Positions 35,298 to 44,100 of a stretch of DNA of 64,000 bases are shown in pieces. Positions within the stretch are counted from its first letter, which is position 1. Every line of letters starts with the position of its first letter. The stretch is taken from assembly GCA_015501605.1 (NCBI GenBank), contig JADNRZ010000004.1, forward strand, positions 558,001 through 622,000, given 5' to 3'. This DNA is from Panaeolus papilionaceus (Eukaryota > Basidiomycota > Agaricomycetes > Agaricales). Under the pieces are notes generated by a model, which worked only from the letters and a program-made list of their open reading frames with translations, was not told where the DNA came from and did not search any database. A program made the translations under genes and the position numbers.

Positions 35298-37927
35298 TCA
35301 AGCCTTGTAGATGCTCTCCATCTCATACATCCTGGTACTGACATCTGGCTTGACATCTTGTGGGTAGATGGGTTGCACTGAATACATGCTGGATGCGGGC
35401 GCTCCGGCTTTTGGGGCTGGTGACGAGACGGGAGCTGGGGTACCTGCAGCAGCGGGAGTCCCCGCCTTGCTTGCGATGCCTGCCGCCCTGCCGTCAGGAA
35501 TCTTGAAGAACTCTCGAACTCCATCCTTTTCACCGTCATAAATGTAGTATCCTTTCCTCTCGAACTGGATGATGTCGCCAGGTTTGAGCTCGAGGACATT
35601 AGTATCCGCCAAAGCGGTCTCCTTGAACTCAGAGACGGGTGTAACAAAGTCTTTCATTTCGTCATTCTCCTCGAGCTTCTTTTTGGTGATGAGATAGTCG
35701 AAGTCGACCAGCCTGACAGTGGGGATCGAATGGTCGGGAGTCGGTTGGGCAAGCCATGTGATTTTTTTCTTCGTTTTGCGGAAGTCGCCCTCGAGGTTGA
35801 GGTCCATAGTGATAGCAGTGACGTTGCCCTCAGCATCAGTCTCCTTGGATCTTACGATGGCATTGCCCCAGTCCATAAGGGTCACCTATGCAAATTATAA
35901 GTAAAAGAATAATCACAAAGATATCTTGCATACCTCTTCGTCGTCCTCGAACGACACAGCATCTTCCTGCTCGAGGAGAATAGAGGATGAGAAAACAGTC
36001 TTCTTCTCGCCGACTTCAGCATTCTTCTTGTGCTTGGGTAGAAGCTTGATCTCGAGTGAGGCTGGGCCACCGTTTATGGTCACGGGAACACTATAAAGAT
36101 CGTCAGTAGCTAAATGTGTCAGAAAGATATCAGGACGTACGGCTTGTCCTTGAGAATGGCCCAGAATCTGGGCGCTACTGGGTCGATTATTTTCTTGTTC
36201 AGGGTCCAGATCGAATCCCATTCCATGGACACAACGGCCTGAGACGGGCCCTGTGACAGCATGAACTGGGTAAGAGCCTCAAGAGTCATTCCGCGACGGC
36301 GAATTCCTGCTCACGACATTAGAATATTCAAGATGTCAGCCAAATCACGCAAACATACCTCTGACGGTAGGGAACCGAGGATCATCCCATCCACCAACTA
36401 AGCCTTGATCAACAAACCAGTGAAGTTTACGCTTGGAAAGGAGGGTGTAGACAAAGTTCAAGCGACTGAAATCCCAGATATTGACCTTTCGAACGCCCGC
36501 TGCTTCGAGCATCCACTGATACTGTGCATTTCTATCTCTGTACTCGTTAGTTCTGAGTGCGTGAGTGACGCCCTCTATCGCATCGACAATAGGGCAGGCA
36601 AAGTCGTATGTAGGGTAGATCTTCCATTTGTCTCTAAGAGGTTGTCGAAATCAGGCAGGAAATTGGCCAGGAGCACGATAAACTTACCCTGTGCGATGAT
36701 GAGGAAGGGTGTTGCATCGATAGATTACAGGGTCGCGCATGGCCTTGTTAGGATTGTCAACGCTAATTTTAGCGCGAATGCACCATCTCTGGCCCTCTGG
36801 TGACCCAGCCTTCATTTCATCGAAGCGCTTGAGGTTATCTTCAACGCTATCGTCACGATGTTTAGACGCGATGCCGTTAAAGCGTTCATTCCTCATTTGC
36901 TCTTGCTCGGTATCGTCGGCGTAGGCTTTTCCGGTCTTGATCATATTGATAGCGTATTCGTAGAGGGTGTCGAAATGATCGGATGTATGTGTTACGACAT
37001 CTCCGTGAATGTCGAGTAATTTCAGGTCCTCCAAGATGGTTTCTTCAAACTCAGACTGTCAAACGAGTCAATTTGTGCAGGGTAGGGTGACAGGGGTGAC
37101 TCACGCGCTCCTTGCTAGGGTTGGTGTCATCGAAACGGACGATTAATTTCCCGTGATACATCTTTGCGAAGTATTGGTTTAGAATAGCAGCCTTTGTGTG
37201 GCCGATATGAAGGTAGCCACTGGGTTCGGGGGGGAATCGAGTAACAACTTGACCATCGATAGCATCTTGCAGACCGAGAGCGAAACCAGCGGCTGTTTTG
37301 TTAGAACGAGCTTTGTTGGCCTTGGCACTCGTAATTTCGGCGAGAAGTTGCTGGGTGGATGTCAAAGAATCCAAATAGGAGAACCAACGAAGAAGATGAG
37401 GGTGCTGATTGTTTTTGAGCAGACCGACAACCTTGATATTCCCTAGAACTTTGTTGCAGTGTTTAAATTAAGAGGATGATAAACGTAGCATGCCTTTAAT
37501 AGACCCCCAAATAGTCCAATCTGCAGCAGATATAGTGTGCCCAACAAGGAACGTTCTAAACGCGAGATGGTCATCAAGAGAGTTTAGAGCAGAAACGATT
37601 TCAGGGAAAGAGATCAGAGTCCTAAGATTTTTTGATAGTGCGATAAATTCTTGTGTCTAGGTATGTATCAAAGATTATTAACTAGCTGTAAATTCGAAGG
37701 TGTAAAGAAGAAAAGAAAACCTTGGTACTATCTCCTGCCAAACCTGCACTCTTGGCTAGAGTCTCAACGATAACATCCTCATCGTCGATAGTTGATCCTT
37801 CGATCTGTAAAACAGGTTTTGTCAAAGATTCATCGAAATTCAAAGTTGAACCAGCATAAGAAGCGATAGCAGCAGCAGCGAAAGGAAAAGGAGATTGTTT
37901 TGACGATAATGTTAAGACGGTTGACAT
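35298..37927 (-). CDS. GUS1: Cytosolic glutamyl-tRNA synthetase
   Basis: This class I synthetase charges tRNA-Glu in the cytosol. The ATG at 37927 begins [20 protein letters not shown], an N-terminal GST-like domain used for complex formation with partners such as Arc1. The catalytic core starts at [20 protein letters not shown] (HIGH signature), followed by [15 protein letters not shown]. The KMSKS-equivalent [14 protein letters not shown] is read on the minus strand near 36460-36410. The C-terminal anticodon-binding beta-barrels include [20 protein letters not shown] and [20 protein letters not shown], then a Pro/Ala-rich linker and a short tail ([12 protein letters not shown]). Eukaryotic/archaeal-type GluRS is preferred over GlnRS because of the GST-like N-terminus and LSKRKL. 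Several introns interrupt it. It is divergent from LEU4 over 239 bp. Confidence 0.92.
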
Positions 37928-38166: not shown

Positions 38167-40758
38167 ATGCCAATGTTGTAAGTAAAATTCAATTTTAATC
38201 TCCTTTCTTGGTATTCATAATACTCCATTAGAACAGTTCCATCACAAAAGTACCGGCCATACACCCCTTTAGTTCTTAAGGATCGTCAGTGGCCTTCAAA
38301 GACTCTCAACAAGGTCCCCGTATGGCTTTCTACAGATCTACGGGATGGAAATCAGGCATTGGCAAATCCAATGACCATAGAACAGAAGACCACATTCTTC
38401 AGGCAGCTAGTCAACTGTGGTGTGAAGCAGATCGAGGTCTCATACCCAGCAGCTAGCGATACGGACTTTAACTTCGTACGTGGTTTGATCGAGAATAACG
38501 AGATTCCGGACGACGTGTGGATACAAGTACGTCTATCTATTTTTTTTTCCGTCTACCCCTAATTCTCATACCCACCTCTCCTCCACCAGGTCCTCACTCC
38601 AGCAAGGGAAGATCTAATCCGACGCACAATCGATGCAGTGGCTGGTGCAAAGCACGCAATCCTTCATATGTACAATGCTACTTCTCCTACTTTCAGAGAT
38701 GTCGTCTTCAGAAACTCTAAAGAGAAGACCATCGAGCTCGCCGTGACCCACACAAAGCTTGTCCGACAGTTGACAGAAGAGTGCACAGCTAAATATGGCA
38801 CAACCTTCAAGTATGAATACAGTCCAGAAACTTTTACTCAAACAGAAATCGACTATGCTATCGAAGTATGTGAGGCCGTAAAGACTGCATGGGGAAAGGC
38901 TGGAACTGGTGAAGATCGTATTATCTTCAACCTTCCTGCCACAGTTGAGATTGCACCTCCGAACCACTACGCAGATCAGGTATTTGTTCCTATAACCTTT
39001 ATCGTACCCATTGTACTCACGCCATACTAGATCGAATATTTCTGTGGTCGTATTTCCGAGAGAGAAAAGATCATCGTCAGTCTGCACCCTCATAACGACA
39101 GAGGTATTCGTTACTCCTCAGTTTTTTCGTTGCATCTGCTGATACATTTATCAGGTACTGGTATCGCTGCAACGGAGCTCGGTTTGTTGGCGGGAGGTGA
39201 CCGCGTTGAGGGGTGTCTGTTTGGAAATGGCGAAAGAACCGGAAATGTCGACCTCGTCAACCTTGCCCTCAATTTCTACACACAGGGGATAAACCCAGGC
39301 TTGGACTTTAGCGACATCCAGTCTGTCATCGATACCGTCACGCAGTGTAACGATCTTCCTGTACACCCACGACACCCTTATGCTGGAGAACTGGTCTTTA
39401 CCGCTTTTTCTGGATCTCATCAAGATGCGATCAAGAAAGGCTTCGAAGCACAAAGAATGCGACACGCTGCTGCTGCCAAAGGGGAGCCCATGTATTGGGA
39501 TATTCCATATCTCCCAATCGACCCAGCCGACCTCGGACAAAGTTACGAAGCCGTTATTCGTGTCAACTCTCAGTCCGGCAAAGGAGGAATTGCCTATCTC
39601 ATCAAGCAGCACCTGCACCTCGATTTGCCTCGAAAGATGCAAGTTTCATTCTACCAAGTCATCCAAGCCATATCCGACAGAGAGGCCCGCGAAGTTACTG
39701 TCGAAGATATCACAACAGCCTTCCGAAACACATACCACTTTGGAGGCAGCAAATATCAAGGCAGGCTTAGTCTCAGAAACTTCAAAATCTCAGCCGAACC
39801 AAGCGATGACCCCACACCCGATTCGGACGAAATTCCCGATGAACGCCGACGCTTCGATGGAACCCTCTCTGTGGATGGTGTCTATCGAGTCATTCGAGGA
39901 GATGGTAACGGCCCCCTATCTGCCTTGTTGGATGCCCTACGTGTACATCTGGATATCGATCTCACTATTCGCGAGTACACTGAGCATTCGGTTGGCGAGG
40001 GCAAGGACGCAAAGGCCGCTTCCTATGTCGAGGTCGTTCCTGCGAATGACCGCAAGTCAAGCCAGTCGTGGTGGGGTGTCGGAATTGACTCCGATATCGC
40101 TGCCTCGGGTCTTCGTGCATTGTTGAGCGCAGTTAACAACGCTATTGGAGACCGTGCTCTACCCGACCTCCAGTTGAGTGTTGGCTTCAACGCTCGTTCT
40201 GGACAAGCCGACATTGCTAGCGCCATCGTCAACTCTTTGGGCCTGGAACTCCCCAGACGCCTGTCATCAGCATTCTTTGAGGTCGTACAACGCGCTTCCC
40301 GTGATACCGGAAACATCTCTTTAGAAGCTCTCACTGAACTCTTCCAGTCAATGTACGGATTCTACCCAGCCGGTGGTCCCGCTCAGAAACTCGAGCTCGG
40401 TTCTTTTAAGCTGCAACACGTAGACGAGAACGGCCGCCAATTTGTGGGAGACATCATCGTTGATGGAGTGAAGCGGTCGGTTACCGGTGACGGTAATGGA
40501 CCTCTGTCATCGACCATCTCTGCTCTGCAGAAAATCGTCGAAGGAAGCCTTGCCGTTCGCGAGTACTCTGAGCATTCTATTGGCGAAGGTACTGAAGTGG
40601 TAGCTGCCTCATACGTCGAGCTGACGTATGAGGTTGCGGGTTCCAAGAAGTCCAGTGCCTGGGGGGTAGCTACTGATACTGATATCACTGCATCTGGTAT
40701 CAAGGCAGTACTAACAGCTGCCAGTCAGATTGGTGTTGTTCTGAAGAATAGCAATTAA
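38167..40758 (+). CDS. LEU4: 2-isopropylmalate synthase with duplicated C-terminal regulatory region
   Basis: This enzyme condenses acetyl-CoA and 2-ketoisovalerate in the first committed step of leucine synthesis. Exons 38167-38177, 38232-38526, 38590-38979, 39031-39103 and 39155-40758 join to 790 residues; about 580-620 is usual for fungi. The catalytic TIM barrel has [20 protein letters not shown] (substrate/metal Asp), [20 protein letters not shown] (metal His pair) and [18 protein letters not shown]. After a linker ([20 protein letters not shown]) comes a first regulatory (LeuA dimer) domain with [16 protein letters not shown] and [20 protein letters not shown]. The linker and domain then repeat as [36 protein letters not shown] and [20 protein letters not shown]. 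No mitochondrial presequence is obvious ([16 protein letters not shown]). Leucine feedback through the extra copy is inference. Confidence 0.95.
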
Positions 40759-41147: not shown

Positions 41148-44100
41148 ATGTCCAAGAAACCAGGTTCTCGCTCCAAGCGCACATCGTCTAGCTCAAGCTT
41201 TCTACAGGACTCGTCATTCAATGCATCTTCTCATCCTTCAAGCTCGCGTCCCTTTTTGAATATGATCAACCCTATGAACAGCACCTATCATGGATATACG
41301 CCTGCAAATCAGTCAGTTTTAGAGGAAGAGGGAGAATCGGCCCATGAGGAAATTGATTTGGAAGGCGGACCGAGCACTATATTCCAGAGCATGCACGAGG
41401 CGCGGCCAACCACCACGACCCCCACTCCCAAAGCCCAGGGAAAGAGACGAGCAGGTCGAGATTCAGTCTCCCCAGGAAGGACTATGGGCTCCAGCGTTCT
41501 ACATCCCAACATACACAAAGAGGATAAAATTCACGAGACGTCTGACGATGAAGACCCTCAGAACTTTATGATTGAACCGACCACACACCGGGGTGCGTCA
41601 CCTGCGTTCACTGGTTCCCCAAAATCCCACGAACACCAACGCCTTCATTCACTGGGTGCTAGTGATCCTCGAAAGCTACCTCCCAGGTCACCGCGAAAGG
41701 TTCACAGACCACTGTCGACGTCACCGCGGCCCGCCAAACCCTCCGAGCTGTATGACGAGGACAGCGTTCATGTAACAGATTTTCAGACACTCCCGACACA
41801 CACGCGAAGCACGGCTCCACGCCAGAAACCTGTAATGAGGGGACTGGACGAGTATGAAAAGGCTTTGTGGAATTGGGTCAATGTTTACAACCTAGATGCA
41901 TTCCTGCAGGAGGTATACCAGTACTATGAAGGAAAGGGGATCTATAGTATCGCTCTTTCACGCGGATTAAATCTATTGTCAGTTTTAGTGCCGAGCTCAT
42001 TGTTTTGTTGCTGATTCTTATTCCAGAACAGTGGGATTTGTCATTGGATTTTCAACATTTCTGCTTGGATGCATCGACTATTCTGCACTACGAGGAAGTG
42101 GACACACCCGGCTATCTGATGTTATTGTGAACCGATGCGTTTCCAAGTGAGATTCGTTGCTGTATTAATGCCTCCTGCAGCTAATGACTCACAAACAGGT
42201 TTTCGGGGTTCACATTGCTGTTCTTCATCCTCTTTACAGCATTTTACGCATGGAGGATAGTCACTTTCGCAATGGGTATACAACGACTGATTGATATGTA
42301 TAAATTTTATACCTATCTACTCAAGATTCCCGATGTCAGTGTTTCCAATCAGTGTCGATTTTGCCATTTGGACTGACTTCCCCCTCAGGCTGATATTCAG
42401 ACTATCTCATGGGGCGAGGTTGTGCGTCGTATAGGGGCTATTCGCGAACAGAACCCACTTACCGCCCTGTCATCTAAGAACGGTCGACCCTCAGACGACA
42501 CGACGACAGCCAAGCTAGATGCTCACGACATTGCCAACAGAATCCTGCGGCAAGAAAACTATCTTATTGCATTGTTCAACAAAGATTTATTGGACCTGCG
42601 TGTTCCATTGCCCAATGCATTGGAATCCTTCCTAGCGGAAGAGGAGGGCAAGGGAAAGATGCTGACTCAGGCGCTGGAATGGAATCTAAGATTTTGTCTT
42701 ATGGAATATCTGTTTGATGACCAAGGCAAAGTTAGAAAGGTGTTTTTGAAGTCCAAGCATAGAAGAACATTAATTGAAGGGTAAGTTTCCTTATCTGGCG
42801 GCGCTGCAAGATATTAAAGTTGCATTGTGGCAGACTAAAGAGGCGATTCATCTTTATGGGCATCCTCAACGCCATTTTTGCGCCCTTTATTGTGCTGTAC
42901 TTGCTCATGTACTCATTCTTTCGGTACTTTGAGGTAAGCCACAGTTCTAATTTTTCAAAGCCCTTTCCTTATAATCCATTGCAGCAATACCACAAAGACC
43001 CATCTTCGATAGGCGGGAGACGATACACTTCATATGCTCAGTGGAAGTTCCGAGAGTTCAACGAGCTACCTCACATTTTCACGCGGAGGTTGGATGAAAG
43101 TTATCCTCTTGCCAACATGTACATTGGCCAGTTCCCAAACGAGAAGGTCACCATTATTATGAGGTGAGCGACGAGGCCCTTTCACCCACCTAGAAGCAAG
43201 CTCACAGTCTTACCTTAGATTCGTGGCATTTATTGCTGGGTCATTCGCAGCTGTTCTTGTCCTGGCAACTGTCCTTGATCCAGATCTTTTCCTCAACTTT
43301 GAAATAACTCCCCATCGTACCGTTTTTTTCTATGTTGGAGTCTTCACCGCTGTCTTGACAGTCGTAAGAGGGATGATTCCAGAAGAAAATCGCGTATTCG
43401 ACCCCGAGCTACTCCTGACAGAGGTCATCACCTACACGCATTATATGCCCGAATCGTGGCGCGGAATGTTGCACAGCAAGAATGTCCACCAAGAGTTTGG
43501 AGAGCTCTTCGCGATGAAGGTCCTGATTTTCGCTCAAGAGTTGTTGTCAGTAATCTTGACGCCATTCGTACTGTGGCTCTCCCTGCCTGAGTGTGCCCCT
43601 GCGATCATCGACTTCTTCCGCGAGTTTACGGTGCATGTTGACGGACGTGGCTACGTGTGCAGCTTTGCCGAGTTCAACTTTGAGAGGCATGGAAACGTCA
43701 AGTTTGGAGTGCAGACGACGATGGTGAACGATGCTAGGATGGTGTCAAATGAGGGGAAAATGGAGAAAAGTTTCTTGCACTTCAAGGTCTGTTGTGGTTA
43801 TTTCCTTGCAAGAGTCGCTGCTGAACTATTTTTATTATTCAGGCCGCGAACCCAGATTGGAATCCGTCGGACCCATCGGGATCTGCTTACCTTAACCGCA
43901 TAGCTGATCTTAACGCACATTATCCATATCCTTATCATCGAAAGCGGCAACAGGCACAGCAGAGTATAGCTGGAGGGTACTATCCGGGACCGACGATAGC
44001 AACGAGCTCGCATTCACATAGCAACATCGCAGGGTCCGGGTCTGACCATGCCGCCCATACGTCGGCCCATGGACATGTATCATTCGCCAACCAGCCTGGC

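Follow-up and report, generated by a model that had tools for sequence, protein, structure and literature searches.

The first step of leucine synthesis, which is under feedback control, is catalysed by 2-isopropylmalate synthase (IPMS), a proposed antifungal target. In the mushroom Panaeolus papilionaceus the enzyme is encoded by LEU4, which lies within the 64,000-nucleotide stretch of DNA analysed here (the window), and its chain contains two regulatory modules in series, which we refer to as R1 and R2. The locus raises the question of what a second module does in such an enzyme, and which of the two senses leucine. From the sequence, the duplication may alter leucine feedback or oligomer symmetry, as the original prediction for this stretch had proposed. 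We tentatively favour a reading in which leucine sensing has moved largely to R2, itself derived by duplication of the enzyme's own module, with R1 serving as a structural relay; the evidence for this hand-over of sensing is mixed.

The LEU4 gene and its two regulatory modules

The LEU4 coding region occupies positions 38167–40758 of the forward strand, with exons at 38167–38177, 38232–38526, 38590–38979, 39031–39103 and 39155–40758 that were modelled from the GT–AG signals and reading frame of the DNA alone. Removal of the four GT–AG introns (54, 63, 51 and 51 nt) yields a protein of 790 residues, the length that had been predicted. The first exon comprises 11 nt only (ATGCCAATGTT, 38167–38177), and no methionine occurs in the unspliced frame over the 240 nt upstream. 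A K(Y/F)(K/R/Q)x(Y/F) motif begins at residue 8–11 in 104 of 114 homologues, most of which start as near to this motif as LEU4 does. Given the lack of an upstream methionine and the position of this motif, the enzyme probably has no mitochondrial presequence, with a further upstream exon still conceivable, and the short start suggests a cytosolic IPMS. The yeast enzymes Leu4 and Leu9 are mitochondrial, and Kluyveromyces lactis has one mitochondrial and one cytosolic enzyme (excerpt of PMC7418496). LEU4 is flanked by a class I Glu/Gln-tRNA synthetase gene on the opposite strand (36684–37374) and, downstream on the same strand, by the autophagy gene ATG9 (41148–42014). The Leu3-type site CCGGNNCCGG, which we take to be the yeast site, occurs 12 times over the whole window with up to one mismatch, against 11.2 expected, and is absent between 25439 and 40483, so that none lies near the LEU4 start codon.

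LEU4 matches NCBIfam TIGR00970 (leuA_yeast) over its full length with 916 bits (cut-off 697.4). Pfam assigns HMGL-like (PF00682) to residues 35–318 (241.7 bits) and IPMS_D2 (PF22615) to residues 335–407 (112.7 bits), followed by two LeuA_dimer stretches, so that the chain runs from a catalytic TIM barrel through a single post-catalytic subdomain to the two regulatory modules. R1, consisting of a three-helix linker and a LeuA_dimer domain, is encoded at 39568–40146 (residues 395–587), and a joint at 40147–40191 (residues 588–602) leads to R2, a second three-helix linker with its own LeuA_dimer domain, at 40192–40731 (residues 603–782). Taken alone, 39550–40149 scores 85.7 bits and 40150–40755 scores 78.8 bits against PF08502 LeuA_dimer (cut-off 24.9), so that there are two matches above the cut-off and not the single one named beforehand as the contrary outcome. 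Aligned over 191 residues, the halves share 38% identity, with a BLASTP E value of 5e-41 that is far beyond chance in a comparison where the other half was the only subject, and R2 by itself matches residues 426–586 of Mycobacterium tuberculosis LeuA (phmmer E 5.6e-14). The frame from 39550 to 40755 is uninterrupted as far as the TAA stop at 40756–40758, and the two linker-plus-LeuA-dimer copies of the original prediction, together with the motifs quoted from each, are indeed present in the translation within a single exon. LEU4 is a variant architecture of the TIGR00970 family, whose model has one LeuA_dimer per chain where LEU4 has two.

R1 is recognised by both profile match and fold, and R2 by its profile match. 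In the predicted model the helices and strands of R2 follow the same order as those of R1, with pLDDT mostly 82–98, and the packing of R1 against R2 in these monomer models is unreliable (pTM 0.56 and 0.61). When the whole-chain model was given to a structural aligner, the IPMS rows covered R1 only and no listed IPMS chain spanned both modules.

Across the whole 50.85-Mb assembly IPMS_D2 is matched once and LeuA_dimer twice, all inside LEU4, which is the sole gene of this fungus with these domains; a second LEU4-type gene was sought as a further match to either domain in the assembly and rejected. HMGL-like matches also occur on three other contigs, one of them below the cut-off. The homologue of Panaeolus cyanescens (P0003) is 94.3% identical to LEU4 over 791 columns.

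Spread and origin of the second module

A search with R2 found 445 proteins at E <= 0.001, and the named species among the best 120 of 445, which were those listed, are by our assignment mostly Agaricales. Use of R2 from Plicaturopsis crispa (Amylocorticiales) as a second query added matches that are presumably from Boletales and Polyporales. As both of these queries select for R2, a new search was made with catalytic residues 180–290 of P0136, itself a two-module protein. Here an HMM built in this study found both modules in 117 of the 120 matches listed, three of these 117 having a module split into pieces. One module match only was seen in 3 of 215 proteins, namely a 607-aa ORF on a 2.1-kb contig (P0171), a 447-aa Grifola model ending inside R1 and a 598-aa Coniferiporia weirii model (P0178) stopping in the joint. 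Both P0178 and P0171 end in or just past the R1–R2 joint, at ...LPEL, which may reflect truncation or else a joint intron that could yield an R1-only isoform.

Both modules are present in 117 of 117 proteins of at least 760 aa, LEU4 included, and in 80 of the 83 shorter than 640 aa, many of the latter being exon-sized ORFs from environmental contigs. The arrangement occurs in at least nine orders as well as in metagenome ORFs, and the two-module matches include Cantharellales (Tulasnella), Auriculariales, Hymenochaetales, Gloeophyllales, Corticiales and Sistotremastrales. No named species outside the Agaricomycetes was recognised among the matches listed (120 per search), and two modules are the rule among the Agaricomycete proteins listed. 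Judged from these sequences, the two-module IPMS is an old and conserved feature of the Agaricomycetes; the tandem duplication that had been read from LEU4 stands, and the idea that it is peculiar to this gene does not.

Five species of Amanita have the two-module enzyme (P0100, P0150, P0154, P0156 and P0158). P0136 is named as Pleurotus ostreatoroseus, and its closest listed matches over residues 180–290 are in Postia, Fibroporia and Wolfiporia, genera that we take to be Polyporales; from these matches the genome record may be misnamed.

The origin of R2 was addressed with a tree of 26 R1, 26 R2 and 21 bacterial modules and one yeast module, the sequence of the last being assumed. R1 and R2 together form a clade with support of 100/96 and R2 a clade with 100/99, and the R1 clade has 94/10, which is weak on one measure. 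Two Tulasnella species branch first within the R1 half and again within the R2 half, in a tree whose bootstrap was unsettled, whose branches are long and whose R2 half is otherwise largely without resolution. With R1 and R2 as sisters and Tulasnella splitting off earliest on each side, the tree is most simply explained by a single duplication of the module within this enzyme, which probably took place before the Agaricomycetes crown, and it supports retention of R2 since its origin before this class diversified. A local or recent duplication is ruled out by the 38% identity of the modules and their conservation across the Agaricomycetes, and capture of R2 from another IPMS is unsupported, as R1 and R2 group with each other and apart from the bacterial and yeast modules.

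Tandem modules were also sought in bacteria. One module match was found at 22 of 22 loci in a first set (L015 and L020 being partial frames of 134 and 451 aa) and at 29 of 29 loci in a second, and no frame with two whole domains occurred among the rows for 69 distinct bacterial genomes (10 plus 60, with G003 in both), G042 having one domain split into two pieces.

Leucine-site residues and rates of change in R1 and R2

In M. tuberculosis IPMS the residues around leucine are L535, A536, V551, Y554, A558, A565 and A567, and mutation at the equivalents of G531, G533 or A536 leads to loss of feedback in yeast (both from an excerpt of PMC2704214). The A555 loop of Mycobacterium abscessus IPMS is described as open without leucine and closed with it (excerpt of PMC11057210), and because its stated neighbours are S554 and D557 we infer that it corresponds to M. 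tuberculosis S560–D563, within the motif YxEHxxxxGxxA. In LEU4 the glycine-rich part of the leucine site reads GDGNGPLS in both R1 (39898–39921) and R2 (40486–40509), and the leucine-site loops lie at 39976–40011 in R1 and 40564–40599 in R2.

Residues at these places were counted in 114 of 214 proteins, chosen for a length of 770 aa or more, exactly two module matches and a sequence free of X; fragments, shorter models and split models were left out. R1 has Gly-x-Gly-Asn-Gly-Pro-x-Ser in all 114, with the G531, N532, G533 and P534 places and Ser at A536 each invariant. Its loop is more relaxed than that of R2 or of single-module bacterial enzymes, with T 37, A 33, S 32 and I 12 at the A558 place and A 74, V 23, S 13 and T 4 at the A565 place. 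In R2 the G531 and G533 places are kept in 114/114, N532 in 102, P534 in 97 and Ser at the A536 place in 108, with departures at N532 in 12, at P534 in 17 and at A568 in 22 proteins. The R2 loop is nearly fixed across the Agaricomycetes (H 114/114, S 111/114, G 113/114, E 108/114, G 113/114 and V 112/114), including the stretch S(I/V/L)GEG, in which Ser stands at the A558 place. By the list in the excerpt of PMC2704214, most of the M. tuberculosis leucine-contact residues recur in R1 and R2 alike, with changes that are conservative, the exceptions being the A558 place in R1 and the A565 place in both. At R1 residue 535 (39988–39990), a small leucine-contact place, 12 of 114 homologues, mostly Mycena by name, have an isoleucine that might fill the leucine pocket.

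Changes were then counted on a tree of 114 full-length related proteins, built from catalytic columns only and with its branchings taken as given. R2 has undergone more changes per aligned site than R1 (mean 20.4 vs 10.4), and places with fewer changes in R2 number 31 of 187, some of them in linker helices, e.g. residues 412–429. In a scan of 12-residue segments, the eight with the fewest R2 changes relative to R1 all overlap the YxEHSxGEG loop, where the R2 deficit reaches 7.5 changes per site. At thirteen places of the leucine site and of feedback, some of them presumed from yeast mutants, R2 has 44 changes against 81 in R1, a result as low being obtained in 12 of 20000 draws of random paired sets of 13. 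The V551, A558 and A565 places carry this difference (75 changes in R1, 19 in R2), and the other ten have 6 in R1 and 25 in R2. Tested within their own domains, the thirteen places of R2 were reached by 0/20000 random sets and those of R1 by 366/20000.

The variability of each position was also ranked within its own domain, a comparison of Agaricomycete R1 and R2 that is limited in that the bacterial enzymes beside them are more diverse overall, several being close kin (a first set of 20, without L023, and a second of 29, without L027, which comes from the same genome as L005). At the A558 place the rank is 0.84 in R1, 0.14 in R2 and 0.12 and 0.16 in the two bacterial sets; at the A565 place it is 0.73, 0.12, 0.29 and 0.06; and the mean over the loop is 0.53, 0.27, 0.33 and 0.31, respectively. 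The six of 89 segments in which R1 is most relaxed relative to the 29 bacterial enzymes all fall on the loop (starts 531–536), and R2 is not relaxed there. In the glycine-rich motif the bacterial sets are about as variable as R2, ranking 0.37 and 0.37 at N532 vs 0.27 in R2, and 0.51 and 0.30 at P534 vs 0.34 in R2, R1 being invariant at both, and at A561 they rank 0.82 and 0.94, near R1 (0.75) and unlike R2 (0.20). As the comparison sets are bacterial, the looseness of the R1 loop may be older than the duplication.

Judged by the loop, R2 is the better candidate for selection on closure around a ligand, and R1 for a conserved body beside the catalytic part. If sensing has indeed passed to R2, R1 would keep its ancestral place beside the catalytic part and relay the signal, and leucine in R2 would close the R2 loop, an effect that would reach the active site by way of R1 and the linker. 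Each catalytic dimer would then have as many as four ligand sites, provided that R1 has remained able to bind. More speculatively, the sole IPMS of an Agaricomycete ancestor could have doubled its module and handed sensing to the new copy, the original becoming a relay or a lineage-tuned second ligand site.

It is less probable, though still a serious contender, that leucine binds to and acts through both modules, so that a dimer would have four sites and a steeper or two-stage feedback, as an in-chain version of the yeast Leu4–Leu9 mixed dimers. The invariance of the glycine-rich motif in R1 speaks against a dead site there, the Tyr, Glu and His of the leucine site are likewise retained by R1 in 114/114 and by R2 for the most part, and this fungus has only one such gene. 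In Saccharomyces cerevisiae the Kii values are 0.22 mM for the Leu4 homodimer, 5.44 mM for the Leu9 homodimer and 0.70 mM for the heterodimer (excerpt of PMC7418496). The R1 loop speaks against this reading, since it varies among T, A, S and I (Ile in 12/114) at the A558 place and is less tightly conserved than its counterpart in the single-module bacterial sets.

That R2 responds to a different small molecule (valine, isoleucine or a keto acid), with leucine acting through R1 and the second signal through R2, we consider unlikely. The nearly fixed Val of R2, found in 112/114 at a leucine-contact place that is Ala in M. tuberculosis (excerpt of PMC2704214), leaves room for a changed ligand; bacterial enzymes have Ala at this A565 place in 26/29 of the second set and 8/20 of the first and Val in none, and structures of the homologous regulatory domain from Leptospira citramalate synthase contain isoleucine, by the titles of 3f6g and 3f6h. 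Yet a change from Ala to Val is small, and the remaining contacts are mostly as in leucine sensors.

A purely structural R2, adding a dimerisation domain and with it a higher oligomeric state, is less likely again. In its favour, leucine binds to M. tuberculosis IPMS in pockets at a dimer interface of the regulatory domains (excerpt of PMC11057210), and R2 evolves fast outside its loop; but that same loop is the stretch R2 conserves best relative to R1, and the conservation pattern speaks for a ligand-sensing role over a structural one. An artefact of gene model or assembly, or a decaying spare copy, is very improbable despite the three single-module proteins, given the one open exon here, the recurrence of the form in many orders and in metagenome ORFs, and the retention of site residues.

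Comparison with known systems

No description of a tandem LeuA_dimer IPMS was found in the titles and abstract openings of the open-access papers listed. Automatic annotation probably records two LeuA_dimer matches in such proteins. Of the papers found, the one nearest to this subject deals with two origins of the fungal enzyme; its phylogeny includes basidiomycete sequences, and the excerpt of it (PMC2904702) makes no mention of a second regulatory domain. An entire fungal class appears to have an IPMS with a pair of regulatory modules, in which, as the sequences suggest, the sensing site has shifted from one part of the chain to another. If this is so, the class would have a serial sensor–relay feedback enzyme, unlike yeasts and bacteria, and the movement of allosteric function between duplicated domains becomes a question that single-site mutants of one enzyme could test. 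The arrangement may also bear on leucine analogues such as L-cyclopropylalanine from Amanita virgineoides, a species beyond the five with a listed enzyme; this compound resembles leucine and inhibits IPMS by imitating its feedback (excerpt of PMC6149818).

Among known enzymes, the Leptospira citramalate synthase regulatory domain (3f6g, 3f6h), with isoleucine by the titles, has one domain per chain. M. tuberculosis LeuA (1sr9, 3fig, 3hps, 3hpz) likewise has one regulatory module per chain and no counterpart of R2; the repeat that it does carry in tandem, a 57-bp VNTR, falls within the domain and does not make a second one (excerpt of PMC2704214). The S. cerevisiae enzymes Leu4 and Leu9 belong with LEU4 to the TIGR00970 family and are feedback-inhibited at the same step, but the 564 positions of that model find their best stretch on LEU4 at residues 7–587, ending with R1. 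Two ligand-binding regulatory domains in series within a chain are familiar from the tandem ACT-type domains of threonine deaminase and aspartate kinase, although these are of a different family from LeuA_dimer. Where yeast varies feedback through two genes and mixed dimers (excerpt of PMC7418496), LEU4 has two modules in one chain.
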